Positions 48,132-64,000 of a stretch of 64,000 bases of DNA are shown here, one piece after another. Source of the stretch: Thermoplasmata archaeon (GTDB lineage: Archaea; Thermoplasmatota; Thermoplasmata; Methanomassiliicoccales; Methanomethylophilaceae); assembly GCA_015063245.1 (NCBI GenBank), contig SUSV01000002.1:62001-126000 (forward strand), read 5' to 3'. The translations under genes were made by a program, and so were the position numbers. Within the stretch, counting starts at the first letter, position 1, and the number at the start of each line of letters is the position of its first letter. The notes under the pieces were generated by a model that was given only the letters and a program-made list of their open reading frames with translations, was not told where the DNA came from and ran no database searches.

Positions 48132-48670
48132 TCCTTATTCGAAAACAGGCGGTTATCGGAGCCGTCGAGAGCATGCTAGCTGAGCATTCGAGAACCGTAT
48201 ATCAGCAAATCAGTCCATGATCTACAGTTGCGAATGATGTTAGCATAGGTTATGTCGATAGGTTGTATTTTTGTCATATTAAGGGTTAGAAATAGTTGTA
48301 TTTTTGACAGTATCCACATATCCAGATTATTAGATGATATGCGTACCGTAAGATGAGAGATAGGATCAAAAATTCTATGCTGAGGATGATAGGAGGGCCT
48401 TGATCATAGACTGTGTTCGTCATTGCGGCAGATTCATCCATCAAGGACTCAAAATGAGAAGTGGTGGGCCCTACCGAAACCAAATCCCACTGAGCCAGAT
48501 CACAGAAAAATATTCTATAAAGGGTCGAATTTCTGGCGATAAAAATGCCGTGGGGAACACAGAGGGAAGAATTCCTCGTAGCGTGGGTCCGATTTTAAGC
48601 GCTCGATCTGAGAACAACGACGGCCGTACAGCCGTTCCCTCAACATTGCACTCAGAGCGAGGTAATCAAT
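48132..48670. other. Non-coding stretch before the replication element
   Basis: No convincing CDS or tRNA in about 540 bp. It holds a 15-bp direct repeat pair with a 33-bp period (48262-48309), a small ACGGC/GCCGT hairpin near 48620-48636 and the leader of the downstream element with a strong GAGGTAATCA ribosome site. It may be the left end of an integrated element. Confidence 0.45.
48262..48309. repeat. Pair of 15-bp direct repeats with 33-bp period
   Basis: GTTGTATTTTTGTCA (48262-48276) and GTTGTATTTTTGACA (48295-48309) differ at one base. The 33-bp spacing equals that of the repeat pair before the ATPase pseudogene at 7775-7825, though the sequences differ. No gene starts close by, so they may be an orphan control region. 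Confidence 0.5.
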
Positions 48671-49015
48671 ATGAAAGCGAAAGCTAGGAATGGGCCCTAC
48701 AAGGCCGGGAGCAGCAGGAAGAACAAGAGGACCAAGGTCAGGAATCTTGTGTCCTTCGAGAAGGGGAACATCAGGATATTCCTCAGACAGATAACGCCAT
48801 TCGACGAGGTTTCTGAGGAGTACGTCCAGCCCTTCCTAAGGTTGGTCTCTTTGGTTGACGGCAAGTATGCGAGGATTCCGTTGGACAAGGAGATTCTGAT
48901 CGAGTTGGGAGGATTCCTTCAATCAATCGGTTCCGGACTGTCGATGAAGGAGGATTCAGGATTGGAGTACTCAGCCCCTTTGAAACCGGAAGCTATCCAG
49001 GAGGCGAGTGAATGA
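48671..49015 (+). CDS. Small protein of the HUH-Rep element (114 aa)
   Basis: A protein with a basic N terminus ('KAGSSRKNKRTKVRN') and a beta-rich core: 'GNIRIFLRQITPFD', 'YVQPFLRLVSLVDGKYARIPLDKEILIELGGFLQSIG'. The next gene encodes a clear paralogue of this core, and the two overlap by 4 nt. A near-perfect GAGGTAATCA ribosome site precedes the ATG. It may bind DNA or form part of the element's replication or copy-control machinery; no named family is recognised. Confidence 0.6.
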   Translation: MKAKARNGPYKAGSSRKNKRTKVRNLVSFEKGNIRIFLRQITPFDEVSEEYVQPFLRLVSLVDGKYARIPLDKEILIELGGFLQSIGSGLSMKEDSGLEYSAPLKPEAIQEASE

Positions 49016-49386
49016 GCTCAGAAGAGGAATTCATCCAGGAAGCTCAGGAGAAGCTTGGGGTCCCACAGCCGGTATCGAAACCTCCCATGAGGCTGCCGTT
49101 GAACAAGTTTCATTACGGCCGTCTCTTCGCCAATTTCACATTGGTGGCAGACTATGACATCAAGAATCAGGAGTACAACCCTCCGGAGCCCAGACTGAAC
49201 ATATCTATGGGGGAGAAGCGCATTTGGCTTCCCACAGATCCGGAGGTCATCAGGCTTTTGGGCGAGTACTTCATCACAGTCGGAAAGACGATGGAGGATC
49301 TCAAGTTCCCTACCAAGGAAGTCGATATCGAGGAGATCAGGAGGATCCTGATGTCATGCGGGTGTGTGGTGAAGGATGGGAATTAA
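49012..49386 (+). CDS. Paralogous small protein of the HUH-Rep element (124 aa)
   Basis: It shares with the preceding protein the pattern 'F.L ... YNPPEPRLNISMGEKRIWLPTDPEVIRLLGEYFITVGKTM', that is a beta-hairpin followed by a helix. The N terminus is acidic and there is a cysteine pair ('SCGC') near the end. Its start overlaps the upstream stop by ATGA and its stop overlaps the next gene by 11 nt, so all four genes 48671-51127 form one tightly packed operon. Duplication of a single ancestral gene is likely. Confidence 0.6.
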   Translation: MSSEEEFIQEAQEKLGVPQPVSKPPMRLPLNKFHYGRLFANFTLVADYDIKNQEYNPPEPRLNISMGEKRIWLPTDPEVIRLLGEYFITVGKTMEDLKFPTKEVDIEEIRRILMSCGCVVKDGN

Positions 49387-49735
49387 GAGATGCTGCCTGA
49401 CCTGCGCATACTTCCCAGGATTCAACGAGGAGCATGAGCTGGATGCTGCTTGTAAGGATTACAGGCCCCTCGATATCGACAAGATCGATGAGATGACCAG
49501 GGACGAGATCCTTACCAAGCTGTATGGGGTCGAATATCTTCGTAACTATTACGAGGAGGATGAGTTCGATGAACTCTATGGTTGGAAGGTCGAAATGGAG
49601 GAATCTTCATCCAGGACTGGATCCAGATGCCCTGAGGAATACGGACCTCAGACCGTCAATGAAACGCCTTACGTTGACAAGAACGGACTTCGCGTATGCG
49701 AGTTCCTCTTGGACGGTCAGAGCGGGGAGCTCTGA
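49376..49735 (+). CDS. Small cysteine-containing acidic protein of the HUH-Rep element (119 aa)
   Basis: An acidic protein that begins 'MGIKRCCLTCAYFPGFNEE' and has further cysteines at 'AACKDY', 'SRCPEEY' and 'RVCEFLL', perhaps one metal site. The centre is helix-rich ('DIDKIDEMTRDEILTKLYGVEYLRN'). No family recognised. Positioned 3 bp before the Rep gene, it may help the initiator. Confidence 0.55.
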   Translation: MGIKRCCLTCAYFPGFNEEHELDAACKDYRPLDIDKIDEMTRDEILTKLYGVEYLRNYYEEDEFDELYGWKVEMEESSSRTGSRCPEEYGPQTVNETPYVDKNGLRVCEFLLDGQSGEL

Positions 49736-49738
49736 ATA

Positions 49739-51127
49739 ATGGACATCCAGGATCTGTTGGATCAAGGATACACTGGGAACATGGATGTGGGGGAGCTGGA
49801 ATCGAGGATCAAAGAGACCTTCGAACATCCAGTCATCCCTTACATCAAGAAACTCCCTTTCGAGGATACTTTCTACAATCCTGACGACACGCCTTTATCG
49901 GAATTCAACGAGCTCCTGTCATGGGTGCCTCCGGGCCATGATCTGGAGCGTCCGATAAGGAATCATTGCGGACCTCTGAGGGTGAAGGGCTCCACAGGTA
50001 ACAACGGCCGTGTGTTCACTGCATGTTCCAATGACGCGGACCATTACATCAGGGGAAAGTGCAACCATTGCTGGTCATGCAAATGCCCGGTGTGTCTGAA
50101 CGATACATGCATGAGACAGGGGACAAAGGCGGAGATGAGATTCGTTGCTTACCGCCTACTATGTGAGAAGCAGGGGATCGATCCGGGACCGCTAGGTCAT
50201 TGGGTGTTGTCCCCTGACCAGGATCTGATCAAGAGGAAGATGCAGTCCCATGAGGACTTCACCAAGTTCCGCAGGAAGATGCAGAAGGATCTCGTCAAGG
50301 TCGGAGCGAAGGGCGGTATCCTGATATTCCATCCTTGGAGGATGAAGGATGATCTTTGGGAGGTCGGACCGCACTTCCATGGTTTTATCCACGGATTCCT
50401 CGATACGGAGAGGTTCCTGGATTCTCATGAAGGCTATGTCATCAAGAAGGTCCACTCGAAGGTCAAGATAGAGTCCATCCGTTTGTCGATGGCCTATCTT
50501 TACACCCATGAGGGGATCGGCCTTTACGAGAGGCAGCCTACAACGGATGATTACATCAGGAAGATCGTGAACTACTACCTTCCCGGATTGCAGACTCCGG
50601 AGCGTCAGGACGATGGTTCGATGGTTATCAGGAACAGATACACTGATGAGGATTATGCCGATCAAGTACTCGGGAAAGGGAGGATGGTCGGAGAGGGAAT
50701 CATCGACTGGTTCGGTATGATCAAGGACTCTCATTTCTCCCAGGTACGTAACAACTATTTTGGCGATATGGCCAACAACATCCTCAAGAAGGTCTGTGTC
50801 GAGAACTATCGTGAGACCAGGACCTGTACCCATTGCGGGGCCGAGCTGAGGACGTATGCAGGCCTGTGCGATCAATGTGGAGAGCAATCTTCACACATTT
50901 TCGAGAACAATGTGAGGGTGTTCGCGAAGGATGCGGATTATGTGAAGGAGCTCGTTCCAGAGATCAAGTCAGGTCTGTCGGATTCGGGTATGAGATGGGG
51001 CGATCTCACACCGAAAGTTGCCATGATCGTTTCCGATAAGGAGGTCATGGACAACATAGCCGCTTCCAGACCTGAGAATGCTCTTAAGGCCTATTCTTCA
51101 GGCCCCATAGTTCGTCATCTCTGTTGA
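49739..51127 (+). CDS. HUH-type rolling-circle replication initiator (Rep)
   Basis: A 462-residue protein. A zinc cluster 'CNHCWSCKCPVC' lies near residues 112-124. The three RCR motifs follow in order: motif 1 'LGHWVLSPDQD' near residue 159, motif 2 'GPHFHGFIHGF' near residue 211 (the HUH histidines), and motif 3 'MAYLYTHEGIG' near residue 250 with the candidate nicking tyrosine. A C-terminal zinc ribbon 'CTHCGAELRTYAGLCDQCG' is near residue 361. The layout resembles Reps of archaeal plasmids and viruses. The protein seems intact, so the surrounding element may be an integrated or recently integrated RCR replicon. Confidence 0.72.
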   Translation: MDIQDLLDQGYTGNMDVGELESRIKETFEHPVIPYIKKLPFEDTFYNPDDTPLSEFNELLSWVPPGHDLERPIRNHCGPLRVKGSTGNNGRVFTACSNDADHYIRGKCNHCWSCKCPVCLNDTCMRQGTKAEMRFVAYRLLCEKQGIDPGPLGHWVLSPDQDLIKRKMQSHEDFTKFRRKMQKDLVKVGAKGGILIFHPWRMKDDLWEVGPHFHGFIHGFLDTERFLDSHEGYVIKKVHSKVKIESIRLSMAYLYTHEGIGLYERQPTTDDYIRKIVNYYLPGLQTPERQDDGSMVIRNRYTDEDYADQVLGKGRMVGEGIIDWFGMIKDSHFSQVRNNYFGDMANNILKKVCVENYRETRTCTHCGAELRTYAGLCDQCGEQSSHIFENNVRVFAKDADYVKELVPEIKSGLSDSGMRWGDLTPKVAMIVSDKEVMDNIAASRPENALKAYSSGPIVRHLC

Positions 51128-51440
51128 TAGGAACCTGGTAGGGATATCCTAACAGGTGTCGCCCGACGGACGCGCGAGCGGATGTCGCGCATCCGAGCAA
51201 ACCTTAGTGCAGCGAGGATGCGGGCGACCTATGGGCCAGGCGGCCATGCGCGTCGGACCACGGTCCAGCGCTGGCCGCCGGGCACATTGACATCATTCCA
51301 ACCCGTTGTGCGTTTCCTGCCATATATGTACCGTGCTGAACGGTACAGACATGGATGATTAAATCATGGACTGATCATGCACCTCGTTTACATCAAACAT
51401 CAAGAAAAGGTTATACGGGCTATCCAGGATAACCAACTCG
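51128..51440. other. GC-rich structured non-coding region after Rep
   Basis: About 150 bp directly after rep are unusually GC-rich and foldable. GGCGGCCA (51239-51246) pairs with TGGCCGCC (51272-51279), with GCGC/GCGC and GGACC/GGTCC stacked inside. Upstream TCGCCCG can pair with CGGGCGA around a CGGATG-TCGCG-CATCCG hairpin. This could be a small RNA or a replication origin. The right part holds the helicase promoter. No ORF is credible. Confidence 0.55.
51409..51417 (+). promoter_or_regulatory. TATA-like box of the helicase gene
   Basis: GGTTATACG lies 24-32 bp before the ATG at 51441, predicting a leaderless transcript. Confidence 0.4.
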
Positions 51441-53876
51441 ATGAAGGACAAAGATATCAAGCTCAATCAAAAGCTGACAGATGCTTGCTCGAGTCTTTCA
51501 TTCTATACCGACAATCCCTATTTTGTCGAACCCATGGATTTCAACACTATCCTGAAGGATTACAAGCAGCTCAAGAATGATGCCGATCGGCGCTCATCAA
51601 AGATTACTTATTCGTTGGGGCTTGTGAATAAGACCCTGAAGGCGAACATTATCAGATTCCAGGAGATGTATGACGCCTTCCCTCAGACCATGGCTTCTCA
51701 TAACGATGTAATCGCTCAGAGGTTGGCGGTCGAGATAGGCAATCGCATCAATCCTGTTGAAGGTCGTGATCTCGATGATCAGCAATTGAAGGCAATTGCA
51801 TATGATGTTAGGACTAGGCTAATCATCGCAGGAGCCGGAACAGGGAAGACAACCACCATCATCGGTCTTGTCAAAGAGCTTCTTTCATCGGGGAAGGCCA
51901 ATCCGGAAGAGATACTTCTTCTTTCATTCACCAATGCATCCGTCAGTGAACTCAAGGGCAGGATCCAAAAGGAAACCAACCAAAGGGTGGAGACCACAAC
52001 ATTCCACCGTCTTGGTCTGAAGATAATAGCCGGGGCTCAGGGAAAGGTCCCTGCGATCTCAAAGATAGACATAGGCAAGTTCGTCATCGACGAGATTCTC
52101 CGCAGGAAATCAGATCCGGCCTTCATGAGGAAACTCAATGAGTACATCGCATACGATTACGAATCTCTCAGGGATGAGGACCAATTCGAAAGCGGTTCGG
52201 AGATGGTCGCATATCTTCAAGAGAATCCTTTGTACACTCTGAACGGTGAGAGGGTTAAGAGTTTCGGGGAATCTGATATCGCCAACTACCTCGCCTTGAA
52301 TGGAATTCCGTACATCTATGAGGATTCATACGAGGTTGATACTGCCGATTCCAAATATGGTCAGTACCATCCGGACTTCCATATCAAGGGCACCAACATC
52401 TACATCGAGTATTTCGGGATAGACCGCAACGGCAATGTTGCGAAGTTCATGACCGACAAGGATCCTCAGGCTGCAGAAGAGTACAGGAAAGGCATGGAGT
52501 GGAAGAGGGAGATCCACAGGGCCAACGGCACCAAGCTGATCGAATTGTACGCGTATGACCGTTCCGAGGGGAATCTCATCGATGAGCTGGAGAGGAAGCT
52601 CAAGGCCAGTCATGTCAAAATGGATCCCCGTCCTCCGGAGGAGATATTTGAAAAGACATTCGGAGGGGATAAACGCAAGTTGAACACCCTTGCCTCCAAT
52701 TTCACCACGGCCATTCTTCTCATCAAAGGTTTCGGGAGGCCTTGGGAGGAAGTATATCCCAAAGCGGACAATCGTCAGGACAAGCGCGAGCTGAAGAGGA
52801 TGGAAGGTGTACTCAGACCGATATATGATGCGTATCAGAATGAGCTGTCGATGAAAGGCGAGATAGATTTCGAGGATATGCTGAACACGGCCTCAGACTG
52901 TGTTTGGAAAGGTCTGTACGTCCATCCGTACAAGTATGTGATCGTCGACGAATATCAGGATCTCTCCAGATCGAGATACAATCTGCTGAAGGCTCTCCGC
53001 AGGTCCAAGGATTACAGGCTGTTCTGCGTAGGCGATGATTGGCAGAGCATCTATCGTTTCAACGGATGCGATGTATCCTACATACTTGATTTCGAGAAGT
53101 ATTGGGGGCCCTCAGCGATATGCAAGATCGAGAGAACATACCGCTTCTCGGGAGAGCTTCTGACCAAGAGTTCTGAATTCATCAGCAGGAATGGGAAGCA
53201 ATACAGGAAGCATCTGATAGGTTCGTCTTCCAAGGATAGCAAGGTCTATCCTCTGTTCGCTCCGACGGATGCGGAGATCCGTAGGAGGATCGCCGACGTC
53301 ATCTTGAGGGCCCCGGAGGGGAAGAGTGTCCTGTTCCTCGGAAGGTACAATCATGATGTCAGGCTTCTCTCGGAGGATGGATTCAGCTGGAGGCCGAGCA
53401 TCTCCGACAGTTCGACCATCATAGGTTATTCAGAACGTCAGGGCCTCGATATGAGATTCATGACCATCCATTCTTCGAAAGGGCTTCAGGCTGATGTTGT
53501 GATTTCCCTCAATAACAAGACCGGAAGGTACGGTTTCCCAAGCAAGAGGGATGAACCTCTGCTGATCCCTCTCCTTCTGGGGAAGGATAACAATCAGTAC
53601 GATGAGGAACGCAGGCTGTTCTATGTCGCAATGACCCGTGCTAAAGATGCAGCCTACATCGTTTCCTATACGAATCGCCAGTCCGATTTCTTCAAGGAGC
53701 TGTTCTCTTACAACGGTAGGGATGCGAACAGAGTCCAGATGATCTGTCCGGTATGTGGCGGTGCTCTATTGATCAAGAACGGAAAATACGGTATGTTCTA
53801 CGGGTGCTCGAACTTCGCATCCAGGGGATGCAGGTTCACCCGTAAGGTGGATAACGGGCCCCGGTATCAGAAATGA
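51441..53876 (+). CDS. UvrD/HelD-type SF1 DNA helicase with nuclease-like insert and zinc finger
   Basis: An 811-residue helicase. The Q motif region 'LDDQQLKAIAYD' and Walker A 'IIAGAGTGKTTTI' lie near residues 114-135, motif Ia 'LLLSFTNASVSELKGRI' follows, Walker B is 'VIVDEYQDLS' near residue 507, motif III 'VGDDWQSIYRFNGC', motif V 'MTIHSSKGLQADVV' and motif VI 'RLFYVAMTRAKD'. Between motifs Ia and II is a ~60-residue insert with 'YHPDFHIKGTNIYIEYFG', the PD-(D/E)xK-like domain of helicase IV relatives. A topoisomerase-type zinc finger ends the protein ('CPVCGGALLIKNGKYGMFYGCSNF'). It may act in repair or defence, or serve the adjacent Rep element. Confidence 0.85.
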   Translation: MKDKDIKLNQKLTDACSSLSFYTDNPYFVEPMDFNTILKDYKQLKNDADRRSSKITYSLGLVNKTLKANIIRFQEMYDAFPQTMASHNDVIAQRLAVEIGNRINPVEGRDLDDQQLKAIAYDVRTRLIIAGAGTGKTTTIIGLVKELLSSGKANPEEILLLSFTNASVSELKGRIQKETNQRVETTTFHRLGLKIIAGAQGKVPAISKIDIGKFVIDEILRRKSDPAFMRKLNEYIAYDYESLRDEDQFESGSEMVAYLQENPLYTLNGERVKSFGESDIANYLALNGIPYIYEDSYEVDTADSKYGQYHPDFHIKGTNIYIEYFGIDRNGNVAKFMTDKDPQAAEEYRKGMEWKREIHRANGTKLIELYAYDRSEGNLIDELERKLKASHVKMDPRPPEEIFEKTFGGDKRKLNTLASNFTTAILLIKGFGRPWEEVYPKADNRQDKRELKRMEGVLRPIYDAYQNELSMKGEIDFEDMLNTASDCVWKGLYVHPYKYVIVDEYQDLSRSRYNLLKALRRSKDYRLFCVGDDWQSIYRFNGCDVSYILDFEKYWGPSAICKIERTYRFSGELLTKSSEFISRNGKQYRKHLIGSSSKDSKVYPLFAPTDAEIRRRIADVILRAPEGKSVLFLGRYNHDVRLLSEDGFSWRPSISDSSTIIGYSERQGLDMRFMTIHSSKGLQADVVISLNNKTGRYGFPSKRDEPLLIPLLLGKDNNQYDEERRLFYVAMTRAKDAAYIVSYTNRQSDFFKELFSYNGRDANRVQMICPVCGGALLIKNGKYGMFYGCSNFASRGCRFTRKVDNGPRYQK

Positions 53877-53928
53877 TTACGATCCCGGGTCGGTTTCGAA
53901 GAGGTTTAGGGCCTTCGGCCCTTGGTTG

Positions 53929-54603
53929 TCAGAGCGAGAATCTGTGGTCCTCCAGCCACTCGTTGATGGCATCGAATCCAGGATAGTTCCTGACGACCCT
54001 GGCGACCTCATCCTTCCTGTCTATTTGCGTCATGTTGAAATCGCTGTTCACATAGACGATCTGATTGAAGATCACGTAGTCCAGGACCTCATCGGGGACA
54101 TCTTCCAGATCCAAGGCCTTGTTGATGGTCACGACCTTCATGAGCATCGATGACCATGCACTCTTATCGTCACTCGTTCCGGCGGACCAGAAGAATCTCA
54201 TGTGTCCGAGGTCTTCGGGGATCAGCTTCATGTCCTTGAGTCTTGCCAGGGATTCCTGGATGTCCTTGTACTGGCCCTCTTCGGATCCGATCCTTCTGTC
54301 CCTCTTGATGTAGGAGGGCTGCATCTTCATTGTGAATTCCTCGGATGTTAGCCAATCGGACACAACTTCGGGGTATTCGCATTCCTTTCCTTTGATCCTG
54401 TTGAAGATCGTCCTCGCGATCCCTTCAACGACGTTTAGCGGAGCTTCCTTCAGGTAGTCCGATACCGTGAATTCGGCCCATTGGTAGGTCCTCATCCATC
54501 TGACTTTGAGTTCGTGATATGCCGCGAACTCCGCTTTGGTCTGTATTCCGAAATCGTTTCCGACCTTCTGGAAGGTCATGTCCAGTTCTTCCGATGTTAC
54601 CAT
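53929..54603 (-). CDS. Metallopeptidase-like protein lacking the HExxH site
   Basis: A 224-residue protein from the ATG at 54603, which has an AAGGAGTTG ribosome site. The C-terminal half reads 'MKVVTINKALDLEDVPDEVLDYVIFNQIVYVNSDFN', closely like archaeal SprT/YgjP-type metallopeptidases, in which this position reads 'YVIYHELLH'. Here it is 'YVIFNQIVYV', so the zinc ligands are gone. It may be a regulatory or inactivated paralogue. The N-terminal half is helical and unassigned. A long structured leader precedes the gene. Confidence 0.6.
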   Translation of the reverse strand: MVTSEELDMTFQKVGNDFGIQTKAEFAAYHELKVRWMRTYQWAEFTVSDYLKEAPLNVVEGIARTIFNRIKGKECEYPEVVSDWLTSEEFTMKMQPSYIKRDRRIGSEEGQYKDIQESLARLKDMKLIPEDLGHMRFFWSAGTSDDKSAWSSMLMKVVTINKALDLEDVPDEVLDYVIFNQIVYVNSDFNMTQIDRKDEVARVVRNYPGFDAINEWLEDHRFSL

Positions 54604-54623
54604 CTTCTTCAACTCCTTTTTCT

Positions 54624-54741
54624 TAGGGGCAACTTGAACCCCGGAACGGAGCTGGAGCGAGGGGATTATGCGGACTGCGGCGAGCAAGAAGGAATAGTTC
54701 AAGCAGGAAAAGGTGAGCCGCTGGACACAATATTGCCCCTA
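54624..54741 (-). promoter_or_regulatory. Stem-closed structured leader, riboswitch-like
   Basis: On the minus strand TAGGGGCAA and TTGCCCCTA form a perfect 9-bp closing stem over 118 nt. Just inside the 3' arm GTTCAAG pairs with CTTGAAC 64 nt away. The stem ends 12-20 bp before the ribosome site and ATG of the 53929-54603 gene. It is too long for a tRNA and lacks a T arm. The family is unknown. Confidence 0.4.
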
Positions 54742-54783
54742 GCGATGAGTGAAGGGTGAAAGTGCCCGAAAAAGGAGTTATTA

Positions 54784-54792
54784 TGTTATGAT
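54784..54792. repeat. Target site duplication of the IS1-like element (left copy)
   Basis: TGTTATGAT occurs at 54784-54792 and again at 55964-55972 directly outside both element ends. Nine identical bases are expected for IS1-family insertion and show that the event is recent. Confidence 0.85.
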
Positions 54793-54845
54793 GGTAATGT
54801 GATACTTTTTAGTTGATATTTTATATTTATACTCCCATATCGTTT

Positions 54846-55283
54846 ATGATGATCAAGATGGGAGAAAGAGGGCCTAAACAGAAGTTCTTGGAGATCTCGT
54901 GCCCGAATGAGGAATGCAGGAATTTCGGCAGACTCGGGGAGCAGAACATCATAGCGAACGGGACCTATCAGACGAAGTCAGGGACCGTGCGCAAATACAA
55001 ATGTAAGACCTGCGGACGCGTGTTCAACGACCGTACTGGCACAGCTTATGAGCATACCCACCTGACCAAGGAGGAGCACAATCTGATCATGGCCTGTCAG
55101 GCCAACGGGGTCGGCGTCCGGAGGACGGCCGACATCGTCGGCTGCACGGTCAGGACCGTGCAGAAGCGTACGAAACGCGGCGGGAAGCATGTTGCTAAGG
55201 TCTCGGCCAGTCTGGAATCGAAGGGTGTGGCCCCCGAGAGCCTCCAATTCGATGAGCTTTTATATACTCTAAAAAAAACATGA
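54846..55283 (+). CDS. IS1-like orfA (InsA-type zinc finger and HTH)
   Basis: A ~145-residue frame (start 54846, 54849 or 54858 possible). 'ISCPNEECRNFGRLGEQNIIANGTYQTKSGTVRKYKCKTCGRVF' is an InsA-like zinc finger. 'GVGVRRTADIVGCTVRTVQKRTKRGG' is a helix-turn-helix for end binding. The last residues, 'FDELLYTLKK', carry the first catalytic aspartate of the DDE triad. The frame ends at a TGA just after an A8 tract, so the full transposase needs a frame change there to join orfB. Confidence 0.8.
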   Translation: MMIKMGERGPKQKFLEISCPNEECRNFGRLGEQNIIANGTYQTKSGTVRKYKCKTCGRVFNDRTGTAYEHTHLTKEEHNLIMACQANGVGVRRTADIVGCTVRTVQKRTKRGGKHVAKVSASLESKGVAPESLQFDELLYTLKKT

Positions 55284-55947
55284 TTTTCGTGGGGACCATT
55301 TCAAAGAGGACGGGGACTGGATATGGACCTCCTTCTGTGCCACCGAAAAGTATCTGCTGGGTATTGTCGCCGACGGCAAAGGAAAGGCCGTCTGCGAACG
55401 CATCGTCAACACCGAATTAGACAAGCTTAGGCGCAACCACATGCCGTATTTCGTCACCGACGGCTACAGACCTTATCTGACCACTCTTTTCAAGAGGTAC
55501 AGCTATCGCGTGTACAACAACGGACGCGGACGCCCGGGAAGCCATTTGGAGCCCAATTCTGACTTCAACTACGGTGTGGTGGAGAAGACCCGCCTGGGCA
55601 AGAAATTGGAGAAGGTGAGGCGGTATGTCGCCTTCGGCGACGTACCGGAACACCTTCTCAACACGTCGGCAATCGAGAGGCAGAACCTGACGATCAGGCT
55701 GTTCAATGCGAGGATCAGGCGCAGAACGGTGACCTTTGGTAAATCCAGGGAGGCCGTGCAGGCAGGTCTGGATTTGTTCAAAGGCTACTACAACCTCTGT
55801 ATTCCGCACTCTTCGATTTCGATCCGGAAGAAGGAGAACGGTGGCAAACGTGTGGATGTCACGCCTGCGATGAAATTGGGTCTGACCGACCATGTTTGGG
55901 AGATGACGGAGCTGATGTCTTTTCTTTATAGACAAAACATCAACTAA
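55273..55947 (+). CDS. IS1-like orfB (DDE catalytic part)
   Basis: The frame opens after a stop at 55270 and shares the A8 tract with orfA. It encodes 'GDHFKEDGDWIWTSFCATEKYLLGIVADGKGK', the second aspartate in 'YFVTDGYRPYLTTLF' and the glutamate in 'NTSAIERQNLTIRLFNARIRR', the IS1-type DDE core. The joined protein would be about 360 residues. From orfA to orfB the ribosome or polymerase must make a net +1 (or -2) shift, not the -1 shift known for IS1. The 3' end overlaps the altered end of the DUF2971 gene. Confidence 0.75.
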   Translation, partial: KKHDFRGDHFKEDGDWIWTSFCATEKYLLGIVADGKGKAVCERIVNTELDKLRRNHMPYFVTDGYRPYLTTLFKRYSYRVYNNGRGRPGSHLEPNSDFNYGVVEKTRLGKKLEKVRRYVAFGDVPEHLLNTSAIERQNLTIRLFNARIRRRTVTFGKSREAVQAGLDLFKGYYNLCIPHSSISIRKKENGGKRVDVTPAMKLGLTDHVWEMTELMSFLYRQNIN

Positions 55948-56755
55948 AAAGTATCACATTACCTGTTATGATTTCTTCTTCAAATTCAAATTTGCTACTA
56001 CATGTTTTGAGTCTGATAACTTCAATTCCATTACTCTTGCATGTTTGAATTATTTGCTTGTTGTACCTAGTACATTTAGCGCCGATATATACACGACTAA
56101 TAGAGTCTTTGATGTCTATTTCATCTTCGAAGCTACCGTTGAAATAGCGCCATTCTTTTTCGTAACAATAATCTTTGTTTTTTGTCAGAATACTTCCAAT
56201 CAATGAGTCCATTATGAATTCAAAATCATTTTTAGTCCTTTTAGGAAAAGATGAAAAAGATTTCTTGGAGTATTTGACTTGGAACGGTGCAGCACAGTTT
56301 TTCAATTTCGAACCATCATATTCGATACAAACTCCAGTATATTGGCGAGCATAGTGATCCCACATAGGGAATGACCGATAATCCTCAGCGAAACAGCAGA
56401 TTGTTAGAAGATCTTTCGGGGTATCAAGTATTTCTTTCATCATTTGTTCAGCGTCACTAGTGTCCTCACACAATTCTTTGTAGAGATTTGTTTTCTTAAT
56501 TATGTCAACAATCGGGATTAAGCTGTCATACGGATCCGACATTTCAGAAACAGAGGCTAAGAGTATGTAATGATTCTCAATTTCATCCATAGCGCGCTTG
56601 GCTGGTCTATATCTGTATAGAGATCTTGGACAGTTTGTATTGAAACCCGTGGATGATAGATAATCTGTGATGTTCGACAAAGATGTCAATAGCTCATCTT
56701 TGTTGGTTATTCCAAATAATTCAAGAAACGGTATGCTTTCTGTATTATTGCTCAT
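55940..56755 (-). CDS. DUF2971 family protein, 3' end altered by IS insertion
   Basis: A 271-residue protein starting 'MSNNTESIPFLELFGITNKDELL'. 'LYRYRPAKRAMDEIENHYILLASVSEMSDPYDS', 'CCFAEDYRSFPMWDHYARQYTGVCIEYD' and 'YEKEWRYF' are typical DUF2971 motifs. Family members occur in defence and accessory regions with no known activity. The last seven residues (GNVILFS) and stop are supplied by the IS end. Removing the IS joins 'EEEIIT' directly to TAATAA, so the original protein ended there. The gene is AT-rich, like the restriction genes beside it. Confidence 0.75.
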   Translation of the reverse strand: MSNNTESIPFLELFGITNKDELLTSLSNITDYLSSTGFNTNCPRSLYRYRPAKRAMDEIENHYILLASVSEMSDPYDSLIPIVDIIKKTNLYKELCEDTSDAEQMMKEILDTPKDLLTICCFAEDYRSFPMWDHYARQYTGVCIEYDGSKLKNCAAPFQVKYSKKSFSSFPKRTKNDFEFIMDSLIGSILTKNKDYCYEKEWRYFNGSFEDEIDIKDSISRVYIGAKCTRYNKQIIQTCKSNGIEVIRLKTCSSKFEFEEEIITGNVILFS

Positions 56756-56847
56756 AGGATAGTAGTCTTTACACTGCCTTACGTATTATTCTTTCTGGTG
56801 ACGAATACGCTTAACTATAAGGCACCCCATTTTGTGTTTGATTTTAT

Positions 56848-59346
56848 ATGGCACGTACTAAGGCAGATTCCACGGTCGAGAAAGAGATCAAGCCCTATAC
56901 TCATGACGATAAGACTCGTCTGAACAACCCGCCAGTCGGTTATGCTCAGTATGATACGGCCCAAGAGACCAAGAAGAAGTACTCCTATGATCCGAATCTA
57001 GATCCTACCCTTACTTGGGCAGGAAAGGCTGAGAGAACATCCTTTGAGGTTCCCACAGTCTCTTTGCATGTGCATGAAACAATAGATCCATACAGAATCA
57101 TACGCGAGGCTAGGCATAGGGAGCATCGTGGAGTCTATCAGACAACGTTATTCGATACAGATTCTTTGATAAAGAGAAGAGAATCAATGGAATTTTATCA
57201 ACATCCCCGGGGTTGGGCTAACAGATTGATTGCAGGAGATAGTCTTCTTATAATGAATTCTTTACTAGAGAAAGAATCTATGGCTGGGAAGGTCCAGATG
57301 GTATACATGGATCCACCTTACGGGATCAAATACGGATCCAATTTTCAACCATTCGTAGATAAGAGAAATGTTTCAGATAAGGATGAGGATTTATCTACTG
57401 AACCTGAGATGATCAAGGCTTTTAGAGATACTTGGGAGTTGGGGATTCATTCATATTTATCTTATTTGAGGGATCGTTTACTGTTAGTGAGGGATCTATT
57501 ATCAGAATCTGGTAGTGTTTTTATACAGATTGGGGATGAGAATGTTCACAGAGTTAGGCAAATCTGTGATGAAGTATTTGGTCCTGAAAATTTCATGAGT
57601 CAAATATCTTTTAAGACATCTCCCGGGGATACGACCAATTACCTTCCCCCCTGTTTAGATTACATTGTGTGGTATGTCAAGGATAAACAGAAGACGAAAT
57701 TCAGAAAATTATACTTGCCGAAGCAGAAAGGCGATGTGAATGCTTCCAGTTTTGATTGGATAGAATTACAGGATGGTACTAGTCGTAGTCTAACGATTGA
57801 AGAAAAGAAAGATCCAAAAAGTATTCCTTCGGGAAAGCTGTTCAGATGGGCAGATCCTTGCAGGAAAGGAACTTCTGAATCTGCCAGATTCGAATTTGAA
57901 TTCAACGGCGAGGTGTTTAAACCCGCACCTGGAATGACATGGAAAACCACTCATGAGGGGTTATCTAGACTTGAACAAGCTGGTCGTTTAGGCAAAAAAG
58001 GATCACAGTTGAATTATAAACGTTACATTGATGATTTTCCAGCCACAGAGCTTCTTAATGTCTGGACAGATACAATGAACTCTTTTATGCAAAGACATTA
58101 TGTTGTCGAGACCAATCCTCTGCCCGTTCAGCGCTGTATATTAATGACTACTGATCCTGGCGATTTAGTCATGGACATAACATGTGGAAGCGGTGTTACT
58201 GCATTTGTATCTGAGAAATATGGCAGGAGGTGGATCACATGTGATACGTCTCGTATTGCAACTATATTAACACGTCAGAGGCTTTTAACAGCTACTTTTC
58301 CATACTACCAATTAAAAGACGTAAGTAACGGCGTATCAAGCGGGTTTGAATATAAGGTGATACCACACATCACTCTAGAAACACTGGCGAATGGAGAAAA
58401 TCCGATTTTAGAGACTATGTATGATGAGCCTTTGATTGATAAGACAAAAATTAGAGTGTCAGGCCCTTTTACGATGGAAGCAATCCCGTCGCCTACAGTT
58501 AAACCCGTCGATTCTTTATATGACGATCTCGCCACTTCGGACACATCTTCCAAACAATCAGAATGGCGTGATCAGTTAAAATCAACAGGCATTATTGCAA
58601 GAGGTGGGGAAATTATCAAATTTTCGAGAGTAGATCCACTTGTAGGGACTAAGTTTTTACAAGCGGAAGCTGAGACTAAAGACGAAGTTCCTCGCAAGGC
58701 CGTTATTTGTTTTGCTAATGAATCTGCACCTCTTGATTCAAAAACAGTCGCTTCTGCTTTAGATGAAGCCGAACTTATACGTCCACTTCCTAAGTTAATA
58801 ATATTTTGTGCATTCCAGTTTGATCCAGAAGCCGCCAAATTCATTGATGAAACCAAGTGGCCCAATGTACAATTGCTTAAAGTACAAATGAATACGGATT
58901 TGTTAATAGAAGATTTGATGAAGAGAGATCCTTCAAGTCAGAGTTTTTGGATGATTGGGCAACCAGACATTATTTGCGAGAAAATAACTGTCGGGGATTT
59001 TGCTGGGAAATATCAAGTTTCTGTTAGGGGATTTGATTACTATGATACAAAAACGGGAACAATTCAATCAGGGGATAGTTCGAAGATTGCTATGTGGTTA
59101 CTTGATACAGATTATGATGGGATGTCATTGAACCCTTCTCAAATCTTTTTCCCGATGTCAGGGTCTAAGGAGGGGTGGGCCAAATTAGCTAAGACATTAA
59201 GAGTAGAATTAGATCCAGATCTAATTAAGATGTATCATGGGGTAAAATCAATACCCTTTAGTTCGAAGGCTAATACAAAGGTTGCAGTGAAGATTATTGA
59301 CAATCGTGGAATTGAAAGTCTTAAGGTCCTTATGATTGGTGAATGA
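56848..59346 (+). CDS. Type III-like DNA methyltransferase (Mod)
   Basis: An 832-residue N6-adenine-type methyltransferase. The catalytic motif 'VYMDPPYGIKYGSNFQ' (motif IV) is near residue 153 and comes before the SAM-binding motif 'VMDITCGSGVTAFVSEKY' near residue 442, the beta-class order. 'WANRLIAGDSLLIMNSLL' is another family block. The long C-terminal third probably holds target recognition. Its stop precedes the res-like gene by 1 bp, so the two form one operon. Base composition is clearly more AT-rich than the genes before 54 kb, in line with horizontal gain. Confidence 0.85.
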   Translation: MARTKADSTVEKEIKPYTHDDKTRLNNPPVGYAQYDTAQETKKKYSYDPNLDPTLTWAGKAERTSFEVPTVSLHVHETIDPYRIIREARHREHRGVYQTTLFDTDSLIKRRESMEFYQHPRGWANRLIAGDSLLIMNSLLEKESMAGKVQMVYMDPPYGIKYGSNFQPFVDKRNVSDKDEDLSTEPEMIKAFRDTWELGIHSYLSYLRDRLLLVRDLLSESGSVFIQIGDENVHRVRQICDEVFGPENFMSQISFKTSPGDTTNYLPPCLDYIVWYVKDKQKTKFRKLYLPKQKGDVNASSFDWIELQDGTSRSLTIEEKKDPKSIPSGKLFRWADPCRKGTSESARFEFEFNGEVFKPAPGMTWKTTHEGLSRLEQAGRLGKKGSQLNYKRYIDDFPATELLNVWTDTMNSFMQRHYVVETNPLPVQRCILMTTDPGDLVMDITCGSGVTAFVSEKYGRRWITCDTSRIATILTRQRLLTATFPYYQLKDVSNGVSSGFEYKVIPHITLETLANGENPILETMYDEPLIDKTKIRVSGPFTMEAIPSPTVKPVDSLYDDLATSDTSSKQSEWRDQLKSTGIIARGGEIIKFSRVDPLVGTKFLQAEAETKDEVPRKAVICFANESAPLDSKTVASALDEAELIRPLPKLIIFCAFQFDPEAAKFIDETKWPNVQLLKVQMNTDLLIEDLMKRDPSSQSFWMIGQPDIICEKITVGDFAGKYQVSVRGFDYYDTKTGTIQSGDSSKIAMWLLDTDYDGMSLNPSQIFFPMSGSKEGWAKLAKTLRVELDPDLIKMYHGVKSIPFSSKANTKVAVKIIDNRGIESLKVLMIGE

Positions 59347-59347
59347 A

Positions 59348-62300
59348 ATGGTTGCTCTAATCGAAAAATTGATTGTCAACTCGGCTTTTAAGGAGCCTGA
59401 GCATCATTGGTTATTCTCTCTTGAGGAAGACAGATTTGTTCTCAAAGAAGGTCGCAGGCCTGCAGGTTATTTCATCGCTGAACAGGGTAGTAATCAATAC
59501 AACGATGTTGGACGTTTTGTTGAGTTACCAGCTGTCAACGAGATACGTAAGAGGGTCGCCAATTGGAGAAATAATGGGTACCCTGGTTGTACAGGGGTTA
59601 CAAGGAAGCTTCTTGCTCATTGGCACGATGAGGAACAACGCACACATCCGTTCTTTTTTTGTCAGCTTGATGCTATTGAAACTCTTATCTGGCTGACTGA
59701 GGCGCCTGATTCAGAGAAAGTTGGGATCAATATAGATCAGGACAACAACGAATTTACAAGATTATGTTCCAAGATGGCAACCGGGACGGGGAAGACTGTC
59801 GTTATGAGCATGCTAATCGCCTGGCAGGTAATCAACAAAGTCGTTTACCCTCAGGACAAGAGGTTCTCGAAGTACGTTCTTATAATTACTCCCGGAATCA
59901 CAGTCAAGAACAGATTGTCAGTTTTGAAGCCAGAGGATTCTGAGAACTACTATGATCAGTTTGGTATTATCCCTGTGACATTGAGGGACAGATTCAACCA
60001 AGGAATGATCAAGGTGACAAATTGGCACACTCTTGCATGGGATGATGAGGCTGTCATTAAGAAGAAGCATTCTGTGGATAAGAGGGGGCCCCTTAGCGAT
60101 GAGGCATATGCCAAAAAAGTGTTAGGACAGATGTCCAGATACTCCAATATCCTTGTCATTAACGATGAAGCTCACCATGCTTGGAAGAAGAATCCTGAGA
60201 TCAAGGTGAAGTATGACAAAGACGACAAGGAATTCATCAAGGAACTTGAGGAATCTTCTACGGTTTGGGTTGGAGGTCTGGAGAAGATCAATCGTGCTTG
60301 TCATATTCAGACGTGTTATGATTTTTCCGCCACACCGTTTGCCCCAAGTGGTAAGAAGAACGATGAGGCTGCTCTTTTCTCTTGGATAGTAAGCGATTTC
60401 GGCCTCAATGATGCTATCGAGTCCGGTCTGGTCAAGACACCTCGCATGGTCGTCAGGGACGATGGCATTCCGGATGCAAAGACTTACAGGTCGAAGCTAT
60501 ATCATATCTATGGTGATGAAACCGTTCGTGCGGACTTATCGAGACCGGCGGAACCTCAGGAATCATTGCCCACTTTGGTAAATGATGCATATAGGTTGCT
60601 TGCCAAGGATTGGTTAGAGACCTATAATGATTGGAGAACAGCAGGTATGTCTACTCCTCCAGTTATGATCACTGTTGCCAACCGTACTGAGACAGCATCT
60701 AGGATCAACTACTCATTTCAGAAGGGTTTACTAGGTGTCGAAGAGCTATGCGAATCAGATTACATACTGCAAATCGATTCGAAGATCTTGAAAAAATCAG
60801 AATCAGTGGATTATGGCGAGGAAGATTTCTCTGGAAAGGATTATGATGATCTTAGCGAAGGAGATCGTGCAGCATATCTCAGACAGAAGGTGAATACTGT
60901 TGGTCGTATCGGTGAACTTGGAGAGCAGGTCCGTAATATAATCTCCGTTTCTATGCTATCCGAAGGTTGGGATACAAAGACAGTAACACACATCATGGGG
61001 CTGAGGGCATTTTCTAGCCAACTGCTATGTGAGCAGACTATCGGAAGAGGATTGAGGCGTACATCTTATGATGTTGATGATGAAACAGGATTATTCACAC
61101 CGGAGTATGTGAACGTATTCGGAGTTCCTTTCTCATTCCTACCTCAAGAGGCGGCACCGGGAACCACCAAACCAACCAAACCCAAGACTCAGATCTATGT
61201 GCGCGACGACATGGCAAAATTCGAGATACAATGGCCTAATATTATTCGTATTGACCATCATTTGAAGGATGTTCTGACATTGGACCTTGAGAACATTCCT
61301 GTTCTGGATATCAACGCATCTGAACTCATCTCTGCAGCAGATCTGGCGCCATTCATTGGTGACAAGGAATACAGCAACGAGCTAGCAGAAATCACGTTAG
61401 AAGATGTCTCGGATGACCAGTTCCGTCTTCAGACAACTGTGTTCCATGCTGCTTCGACACTTTATGATATGGACTGGAGTACTAAAGGGACCAAGATCGC
61501 ACTCCTCGGTCAACTTATAAGAGTAGTCGAAGAATTTCTGAATTCGGAAAAGATCAACATCATGCCACCTTCTTATGGTGACAAGAGTAATCCGAAGCGT
61601 CGTATCATTTTATCTCGTAATATTGGTCGTGTGATCACACACATTCGTGAACATATCATGTCCGAGAATGTCGAATCGACCGAAGTCGTTCTTGATCAGA
61701 ACCGCCCTATGCTATCGACGGCGGATATGCCTACTTGGTATACGTCCAAAAATTGTGCAATGGCAGTCAAATCGCATATTAGTCACTGTGTTGTCGATAG
61801 TGCGTTGGAGGCCTCCCATGCTAACAAACTCATCAAGAATCGTTCAGTGGAAGCTTGGGTGAAGAACGATCATATCGGTTTTGAGATCCAATACATGTTT
61901 AACGGTGGTTTTGCTAATTATCGTCCAGACTTTATAATCAGGTTATCCAATGGACATTACCTTGTTCTAGAAACCAAAGGTCAGGATTCTGAGAGGGTCA
62001 GGGCTAAGCGTAAAGCGTTGAAAGAATGGGTGGACGCTGTTAACTCCTTAGGTAAATATGGAGTATGGCATGAGGACATGTGTTTTCAAGAGGATGATCT
62101 CAATGCCATTGTTGCTAAATATGTCCAATACGAGCGCGACGGTTCTAGTGTATTCTATGATGAGGATCCTGATGTGAAGCTTTCCGACGTACTCGGAACA
62201 AGCGTTACAGGCCGCGTACATGCTTACCCGCAGACAGAGGAAGGTCTGATAAATCCAGCCATGATGGAGCGTACCAAATTCGATGATGGCAAGAGATTGG

Positions 62301-62947
62301 GTCCGGAGAACATTCATCCGTCAACAGTTGGTCTTGCTGTAGATTATCTTACCAGATTCATGCTGGGTGATGATCCGAAAGATGCATTTAGGATTCCATT
62401 GATGGGAGCAGACATCGCAGGAAAATTCGATGAAGTTTTAAATTTATTGTACAATGTTACTGATTTGAGCAATGAATCCATCATCAATATGTGCCGTGCG
62501 GTTCCGTTCGATGTCTATTACAGAGCGGGGGTCGCACCATCATTCGATCCATTCAGTCTTGATGTAGATCAATCTACGATTGACAACATTCGCATCATGG
62601 TGGAACGTACTCTCAAGTTCTTTGATGATAACGGTCCCATAACTGTTTTCGGACCGACTTTCCCAGGATCCTATACGGATAAGGTTCTCACGGGAGACGG
62701 TGATTTAGTTACAACCGATGCCATATGGGATCTAAAAGTATCTAAAAATCAACCTACAAAAGAGAATACCTTGCAGCTTATGATATACTATTTGATGTGC
62801 AAGCATTCTGTGGATAGGAAGCTCAAGAAGATAACATACATGGGGATATTTAATCCAAGATTGAATATTGCATATACACTCAATCCTGCTATTTTGGATA
62901 AAGGCATCATAGAAAAAGTTGAAAAAGAGGTGATCGGTTATGAATGA
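59348..62947 (+). CDS. Type III-like restriction helicase-nuclease (Res)
   Basis: A 1199-residue protein starting at an ATG with a GGTGA site. SF2 helicase motifs: 'MATGTGKTVVMSMLIAWQV' near residue 143, DEAH box 'LVINDEAHHAW' near residue 271, 'DFSATPFAPSG' near residue 325 and 'CEQTIGRGLRR' near residue 562. The nuclease motif 'NYRPDFIIRLSNGHYLVLETKGQD' near residue 860 has the D ... ExK of a PD-(D/E)xK enzyme. It would cut unmodified DNA after translocation together with Mod. The reading frame is intact, so the system may be active. Confidence 0.85.
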   Translation: MVALIEKLIVNSAFKEPEHHWLFSLEEDRFVLKEGRRPAGYFIAEQGSNQYNDVGRFVELPAVNEIRKRVANWRNNGYPGCTGVTRKLLAHWHDEEQRTHPFFFCQLDAIETLIWLTEAPDSEKVGINIDQDNNEFTRLCSKMATGTGKTVVMSMLIAWQVINKVVYPQDKRFSKYVLIITPGITVKNRLSVLKPEDSENYYDQFGIIPVTLRDRFNQGMIKVTNWHTLAWDDEAVIKKKHSVDKRGPLSDEAYAKKVLGQMSRYSNILVINDEAHHAWKKNPEIKVKYDKDDKEFIKELEESSTVWVGGLEKINRACHIQTCYDFSATPFAPSGKKNDEAALFSWIVSDFGLNDAIESGLVKTPRMVVRDDGIPDAKTYRSKLYHIYGDETVRADLSRPAEPQESLPTLVNDAYRLLAKDWLETYNDWRTAGMSTPPVMITVANRTETASRINYSFQKGLLGVEELCESDYILQIDSKILKKSESVDYGEEDFSGKDYDDLSEGDRAAYLRQKVNTVGRIGELGEQVRNIISVSMLSEGWDTKTVTHIMGLRAFSSQLLCEQTIGRGLRRTSYDVDDETGLFTPEYVNVFGVPFSFLPQEAAPGTTKPTKPKTQIYVRDDMAKFEIQWPNIIRIDHHLKDVLTLDLENIPVLDINASELISAADLAPFIGDKEYSNELAEITLEDVSDDQFRLQTTVFHAASTLYDMDWSTKGTKIALLGQLIRVVEEFLNSEKINIMPPSYGDKSNPKRRIILSRNIGRVITHIREHIMSENVESTEVVLDQNRPMLSTADMPTWYTSKNCAMAVKSHISHCVVDSALEASHANKLIKNRSVEAWVKNDHIGFEIQYMFNGGFANYRPDFIIRLSNGHYLVLETKGQDSERVRAKRKALKEWVDAVNSLGKYGVWHEDMCFQEDDLNAIVAKYVQYERDGSSVFYDEDPDVKLSDVLGTSVTGRVHAYPQTEEGLINPAMMERTKFDDGKRLGPENIHPSTVGLAVDYLTRFMLGDDPKDAFRIPLMGADIAGKFDEVLNLLYNVTDLSNESIINMCRAVPFDVYYRAGVAPSFDPFSLDVDQSTIDNIRIMVERTLKFFDDNGPITVFGPTFPGSYTDKVLTGDGDLVTTDAIWDLKVSKNQPTKENTLQLMIYYLMCKHSVDRKLKKITYMGIFNPRLNIAYTLNPAILDKGIIEKVEKEVIGYE

Positions 62948-64000
62948 TGGCAAATACCGTTTCTTCTCTGCGCTCTGTTATGAGGAGGGATGTCGAGATG
63001 GCTGATGACTTGAAAGCGCTTTGCGAAGTCGCTTCGACTTCTGATGTCCTCAAAGATACTTCTCAGATTATTGTAAAGACCAGAGATTATACCTATCAGT
63101 CCGTCAACAAGGCCTTAATACTTCGTAACTGGTTACTTGGAAGGAGGATCTCCCAGGAAGTCCTGAGAGATGGAAGTTTTGAGGAGACATATGGAAAGAA
63201 GCTCATTGCAGATCTTTCCAAAGAGCTCACTTCTAACTTTGGAAAGGGCTTCAGCCCCAGTAATCTTTACAAGTATGTCAGGTTCTACAAGGCCTTTCCA
63301 GAGATATTGTCCACACTGTGGACACAATCTTTTTCGACCCTTTCTTGGAGTCATTATCGCATTCTTATACAGGTAGAGGATGACGATGCCAGATATTGGT
63401 ATGAGAAGGAAGCTTCTGATCAGACTTGGGCTGTCAGGACTCTTCAACGCAATATCGATTCTCAATACTACTACAGAATGCTGAAGACTCCCGATCCGCA
63501 GGCCGTAGAATCCGAGATGAGGGCACTCACAGTGGATTACGAGACTGAGAAACTATCGTTCATTAAGGATCCGGTTGTTGTAGAATTCCTTGGCTTATCT
63601 CCTGATGACAAGTACACGGAATCAGACCTGGAAACTAGGATAATAGATAATCTGCAGAAGTTCTTGTTGGAGCTTGGTAAAGGCTATGCGTTCATGGCCC
63701 GTCAGCAGCATATCCATACTGAAGCTAAAGACTACTATCGACCTGGTTTTCTACAACGTCTATCTGAAGTGTTACGTTCTCATCGATCTGAAGACCACAA
63801 GGGTGAATCATCAGGACGTAGGTCAAATGGACATGTACGTCAGGATGTATGATGAGCTCAAACGCGTAGAGGGCGACAATCCGACGTTAGGGATCATTCT
63901 ATGCTCTAATACCGATGAGGATGTGGCCCGTTATTCCATCCTTCACGATAACGATCGCCTCTTTGCTACGAAATATAAGTTGTATCTACCATCAGACGAG
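62944..64000 (+). pseudogene. YhcG/DUF1016-family nuclease gene with frameshift (runs off window)
   Basis: The first ~265 residues are intact: a DUF1016 N-terminal region ('YQSVNKALILRNWLLGRRI', 'GKGFSPSNLYKYVRFYKAFPEI', 'TLSWSHYRILIQV') and the linker 'FLLELGKGYAFMARQQHIHTEAKDYY'. At 63739 the frame breaks: the next frame continues 'DLVFYNVYLKCYVLIDLKTTRVNHQDVGQMDMYVRMYDELK', the expected catalytic core, to the window end. One base too many or two too few (likely loss of AT from a TATATC stretch) explains it. As written, the protein stops at 63852 without the nuclease site. Sequencing error is possible. Confidence 0.7.

Follow-up and report, generated by a model that had tools for sequence, protein, structure and literature searches.

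SNJ2, a Betapleolipovirus of Natrinema, is an integrated virus whose rep operon is restored on circularization (PMC13107129, PMC8371274). Its int-containing operon forms only on circularization, and a conserved hairpin downstream of rep is needed for replication (PMC13107129). A second group of archaeal integrated plasmids and elements, including pT26-2 and those of Methanococcales and Thaumarchaeota, combines a tyrosine recombinase acting at a tRNA end with cargo between modules and with tandem insertion (PMC8371274). In the Methanomassiliicoccales themselves, pleolipovirus-like proviruses have been reported (PMC10919331, citing Medvedeva et al. 2023). SNJ1 (Simuloviridae) is an icosahedral virus kept as a circular plasmid.

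The locus described here comes from a member of the Methanomassiliicoccales, methyl-using methanogens of animal guts. Most of it lies in the window (the whole stretch of 64,000 nucleotides that was analysed, from genome G000), and its right end, at a tRNA-Met gene, falls 1.9 kb past the window. We conclude that the four genes A-B-C-rep at its left end are probably the replication module of a ~17.5-kb integrative rolling-circle replicon, plasmid-like and without virion genes, which is close to the integrated rolling-circle plasmid that the earlier note had offered as one reading. Positions beyond 64000 are given as window equivalents in the following list of features.

48456 to 64000, plus strand: integrated element, continuing to window-equivalent 65955 (17.48 kb in total)
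48456 to 48476, strand not applicable: attL, GAGAAGTGGTGGGCCCTACCG, an exact 21-bp direct repeat; the elements of relatives start with the same motif
48671 to 49015, plus strand: gene A, 114 aa, basic (pI 9.4), paralogue of B
49012 to 49386, plus strand: gene B, 124 aa, paralogue of A
49376 to 49735, plus strand: gene C, 119 aa, acidic, with a cysteine motif near the N-terminus
49739 to 51127, plus strand: rep, 462 aa, likely HUH-type rolling-circle initiator related to SNJ1 RepA
51157 to 51287, plus strand: STR, a conserved GC-rich block of two hairpins just after rep, proposed replication origin
51312 to 51347, plus strand: GTATCCTGCCATATATGTACC-type (GTATCC-type) motif with a hairpin, marking the end of the replication module and the cargo slot
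51441 to 53876, plus strand: UvrD-family helicase with a C-terminal zinc ribbon (Pfam UvrD-helicase, 3.9e-44)
53929 to 54702, minus strand: 257-aa protein; members of its family often follow these Reps
54793 to 55963, plus strand: IS1-like insertion that has two reading frames and ends in 30-bp terminal inverted repeats
55940 to 56755, minus strand: DUF2971 protein (PADLOC PDC-S31)
56848 to 63852, plus strand: type III-like methyltransferase (832 aa), ResIII protein (1203 aa) and DUF1016/YhcG nuclease (302 aa), by Pfam and PADLOC
64100 to 64516, minus strand, past the window end: winged-helix-like regulator
Past the window, between regulator and integrase: 85-aa open reading frame
64861 to 65820, past the window: tyrosine integrase (Pfam Phage_integrase, 1.8e-12; PHROG integrase, 1.7e-23)
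65935 to 65955, past the window: attR, the identical 21-bp GAGAAGTGGTGGGCCCTACCG, at the 3' end of an intact tRNA-Met(CAT) gene

Like SNJ2, this element has a tyrosine integrase at one end, a rep operon at the other, a short att site formed by a tRNA end and hairpin DNA just downstream of rep, and in the inferred circle int would stand upstream of the rep operon. Unlike SNJ2, whose Rep belongs to Rep-Arvir/DUF7845 (Rep_trans-like), a family to which the Rep in the window has no Pfam match, the element contains no spike or other virion gene that we could find. It also differs from SNJ1 in being integrated and lacking capsid genes, and from the proviruses reported in the order in lacking spike-like, membrane-protein and ATPase genes. 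The likeness to pT26-2 and to the elements of Methanococcales and Thaumarchaeota covers integration and layout, not replication-gene sequences. The general kind, an integrated replicon, is known, and the family itself appears to be unnamed in the sources searched, which did not include the 2023 survey of methanogen viruses; in the same sources we found no described plasmid with this Rep.

All four open reading frames named in the earlier note are present on the plus strand and are tightly packed, with overlaps of 4 bp (A/B) and 11 bp (B/C) and a gap of 3 bp between C and rep. They do not make up an element of their own as the note had supposed, its boundaries being att sites 17.5 kb apart. A and B are paralogous, as had been claimed: their direct identity is low (~16–23%), 21 open reading frames from relatives are each matched by both queries (phmmer, E ≤ 1e-3), and the two can be aligned as one family, which also occurs at the left end of virus-like elements. 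Gene C is indeed acidic and rich in cysteine (pI 4.3, 24% D+E, 6 Cys in 119 aa) and is kept in the type-1 relatives L002, L054, L055 and L056. Comparison of A, B, C and Rep with Pfam, PHROGs and NCBIfam yielded nothing useful, and Pfam has no family for Rep or for A/B. B gave neither a fold nor a family match in databases. The AlphaFold model of B (pLDDT 61) predicts, at low confidence, a beta-beta-beta-beta-alpha order, from which one might guess that A and B are PC4- or SSB-like proteins.

Rep is likely a rolling-circle initiator, judging by its motifs. Motif 1 (GHWVLSPDQ at 153), the HUH motif (GPHFHG at 210) and the motif of the catalytic tyrosine (SMAYLYTHEG at 250) stand in the expected order and are conserved across 21 aligned homologues, in which H212, H214 and Y253 are invariant; the earlier description of a Rep with three rolling-circle motifs is thus upheld. 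Two clusters of cysteines lie at 108–119 and 363–381. Profile comparison points to remote homology with SNJ1 RepA, itself an established rolling-circle initiator (hhalign, 88.7%, E 2.5e-6), collinear over the N-terminal zinc finger, motif 1, HUH and tyrosine motifs and only 23% identical in the aligned region, whereas HRPV-1 ORF1, HHPV-1 ORF1, SNJ1 PB1 and the UvrD of the window, used as negative comparisons, gave 0.1–1.4%. Because the AlphaFold model of Rep is unusable (pLDDT 36), the HUH fold rests on the motifs and this one profile match. Membership in Rep-Arvir (DUF7845) was considered and rejected, since PF25227 matches none of the 21 Rep members and the tyrosine motif is AYLxTH as against the KHYYM type of Rep-Arvir. 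Homologues of Rep occur in 31 of the 147 genomes of the order, with up to 10 matches per genome, so the family is not a product of chance.

The hairpin block STR is a probable candidate for the replication origin. Its predicted DNA fold beats that of all 200 shuffled sequences (z −3.45), two-sided changes occur in 7 of 28 pairs, and matches to its covariance model are confined to genomes carrying these elements. The block is conserved between elements whose Reps share only ~36% identity. It follows rep in type-1 elements and precedes it in virus-like ones, and its covariance model recognizes no block in elements of another branch. The GTATCCTGCCATATATGTACC-type motif was found in 6 of the 31 genomes of the genus, each of which carries type-1 elements or remnants.

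The element is almost certainly integrated at tRNA-Met and has its own integrase, a classical tyrosine enzyme. The left-end motif AGTGGTGGGCCCTACCG occurs in the genome of the window at 48464 and at window-equivalent 65943, the latter copy belonging to tRNA-Met(CAT) as called by ARAGORN. The same program finds a tRNA at attR and at the computed empty site (attB, with the flanks joined), and none at attL or at the inferred attP, whose junction would read CTGGGTAGAGAAGTGGTGGGCCCTACCGAAACCAAATCCC. Most type-1 copies and nearest relatives begin at their left ends with AGTGGTGGGCCCTACCG or a variant, and in G087 and G085 an intact tRNA-Met(CAT) gene has this sequence at its 3' end. The earlier note saw no integrase, which holds inside the window; the element does encode a tyrosine integrase, missed because the gene begins 0.86 kb beyond position 64000, and it lies ~120 bp from the attR core. 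In the circle computed by joining the ends, int and A would share a strand, with int 330 bp upstream. All of 17 Rep-Int pairs have Int on the strand of Rep and downstream of it, which is a pattern and not a statistic: the pairs were chosen by hand for an Int that follows Rep on its contig, and in one contig at least (G092:C72) Int stands upstream and points the opposite way.

An occupied and an empty site can be compared directly in G078 and G077. The flanks of a 43-kb insertion in G078 (98.6% identical over 4.1 kb on the left, 99.4% over 4.6 kb on the right) are contiguous in G077, where they meet exactly at the 14-bp core GGTGGGCCCTACCG. The earlier note had named as refutation a position conserved in all relatives together with the lack of an episomal form. 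The position is not so conserved, the tRNA-Met site being empty in some relatives and one relative (G079) having its left end in a sequence of the tRNA-Pro(TGG) type; an episomal form was not found in any of the collections searched. For G000, relatives keep the right flank at tRNA-Met, and no contiguous match to the left flank was found in them. Elements of 10.1 and 9.0 kb occupy the same tRNA in G083 and G092, with repeats of 16 and 18 bp, and 58% identical integrases adjoin it in the same layout in G078 and G083. G078 and G092 each have an older remnant in tandem on the left, and elements therefore pile up at this tRNA site.

At one tRNA-Met, L054 (G078) and L178 (G077) show an old remnant in which A/B are truncated or fused and a fragment of an integrase survives; only in G078 does the second, 43-kb element follow it. 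The left ends of the subfamily L003, L055 and L056 start with GGAGTGGGGACC and not with the tRNA-Met core.

Near-identical sequences in other genomes show that the family is mobile. A segment of 973 bp (48459–49431) is 98.4% identical in G078, as compared with ~77% for the chromosomal gene beside the tRNA, and G082 and G115, two genomes of different genera, have copies that share 97.6% identity over 2.9 kb. In G078 and G079, near-identical cores (L002 6474–9585, 96%) run from the left motif to the last position of STR, and the DNA outside these limits differs. A scan of GTDB contigs recovered two Rep relatives, L002 (Thermoplasmata archaeon SIG8) and L003 (Methanomassiliicoccaceae archaeon Tb.RUG.29). 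The search for circular contigs suggested earlier gave no episomal form in plasmid, phage and viral-contig collections: queries with Rep, a distant Rep, the virus-like ATPase and att/STR patterns found no relatives in the plasmid, phage and IMG/VR sets, and the missing attL/attP-type pattern in IMG/VR contigs is weak evidence on the excised circle.

On the preferred reading, the integrase would excise the element by recombining attL with attR. Circularization would restore attP and join int to the A-B-C-rep operon, 330 bp away on the same strand, and the replication genes would be well expressed only in the circle, so that excision may be coupled to replication. Rep would then nick one strand at STR through Y253 and a metal site formed by H212 and H214, starting rolling-circle replication. 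The likeliest task of A and B would be to act on single-stranded DNA or to control the operon, and C would serve as an accessory zinc protein. The circle would spread with exchangeable cargo, here a restriction-like set, possibly mobilized by a virus.

Homologous replication genes are also found in virus-like modules of ~13 kb, which consist of an A/B homologue, several large surface (spike)-type proteins with Listeria-Bacteroides repeats, small membrane proteins, a 272-aa membrane protein, a P-loop ATPase and a Rep ~36–40% identical to that of the window. Gene order and one weak profile match, between the 272-aa membrane protein and HRPV-1 ORF7 (P 0.0009, probability 23%), suggest that these modules are pleolipovirus-like; their ATPase gave no match to HRPV-1 VP8. 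The proviruses already reported from the order are probably the same virus-like relatives (L074, L075 and others). An alternative assignment to inoviruses with a Zot ATPase was rejected, there being no Zot Pfam match and the gene order being pleolipovirus-like instead. The earlier statement that no capsid gene is present extends to the full element at 48456–65955, in which no virion gene (VP4-like spike, VP3-like membrane protein, ATPase) was recognized.

The satellite RS1 uses the machinery of CTX phage for packaging and spread. The element could likewise be a satellite of the virus-like elements, sharing their Rep and structured origin and being packaged and spread by a helper virus. This would fit its want of virion genes, the homology of its Rep and A/B to those of the ~13-kb modules, and the STR common to both kinds of element (80–87% identity over ~72 nt). 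However, the virus-like ATPase, present in 23 of the 147 genomes, is absent from G000, G078, G079, G085 and G087, all of which have type-1 copies, so these five have no resident helper, and its co-occurrence with type-1 elements is not enriched. The element, cargo included, reaches the size of a virus, it has no proven packaging signal in common with one, and nothing points to helper dependence. We regard a satellite as unlikely and favor a plasmid-like replicon.

In the Rep tree, for which the presence of the ATPase was checked for every row, the Rep of the window falls in an eight-member clade without virion genes (support 100/100), and two Reps of elements without virus genes (L040, L038) fall inside the virus clade. 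Descent from a virus-like provirus, stripped not long ago of its morphogenesis genes and left as a fossil genomic island, would account for the latter two and for the frequency of remnants, truncated copies standing at the tRNA in G077, G078 and G087. This is nevertheless very unlikely for the element in the window, which belongs to the separate virion-less clade and retains its four genes, its integrase and both att sites intact; recent movement is also indicated by the almost identical stretches present in another species.

An HUH transposon of the IS91 or Helitron type, in which the four genes and the hairpins would be self-mobile and the tRNA island a mere landing place, draws on the G078/G079 cores that stop at the left motif and the STR end but is hardly credible, since the left boundary is a tRNA 3' end serving as a tyrosine-integrase att site, the break on the right is consistent with tandem elements having exchanged modules, there is no match to an IS91 or Y1/Y2 transposase family, and a core like 48463–51287 was nowhere seen alone at a site without an att sequence. 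The left motif GGTGGGCCCTACC had likewise been considered as a transposon end or nick site and was discarded as the 3' end of tRNA-Met.

Separately from these observations, the Rep of L040/L083 (G074:C5) is chimeric: its left 0.9 kb is 97% identical to the virion-less L059 and the rest 88% identical to the virus-like L066, which is direct evidence of recombination at the start of rep.

Returning to the plasmid-like replicon, a wider proposal can be put forward with considerable doubt. The element may represent a long-lived lineage of virion-less replicons in gut and rumen Methanomassiliicoccales, standing apart from virus-like elements with homologous Rep, A/B and hairpin, exchanging parts with them and using viruses for transfer. 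Only the fusion of int with the rep operon on excision would turn replication on, an arrangement that would have arisen independently of SNJ2 and with an unrelated Rep. The parallel with SNJ2 across different classes of Rep would allow the gating of a replication operon by excision to be tested as a design general to archaea. Should the replicon function as proposed, its 2.8-kb left module with the hairpin origin is a candidate shuttle vector for the order, and the tRNA att site with the integrase would be a candidate integration vector for Methanomassiliicoccales.

Between the replication module and the integrase, such elements carry cargo, here of restriction type. The methyltransferase, ResIII and nuclease genes at 56848–63852 form an operon-like row with a GC content of 0.43, as compared with 0.53 in the left flank, and the ResIII protein ends in the PADLOC candidate domain PDC-S61. 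The terminal inverted repeats of the IS1-like insertion are identical at 29 of 30 positions. The genes for UvrD, the IS1-like insertion and restriction may be later arrivals, gained once the element had integrated, and the true mobile unit could therefore be smaller than 17.5 kb. UvrD and the 257-aa protein had been considered as core genes, which is unsupported because both vary between copies. The family of the 257-aa protein occurs, in several copies, in 96 of 102 genomes of the taxonomic family, and some members keep an HExxH-like stretch that the one in the window lacks. A two-gene cargo of a 65-aa protein and a protein judged by eye to be retropepsin-like recurs beside type-1 elements, at these positions:

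L002, 9611 to 10309: 65-aa and retropepsin-like cargo
L054, reverse complement, 720 to 1417: the same cargo
L139, 6209 to 6932: the same cargo

Other copies have toxin-antitoxin-like gene pairs in the same slot.
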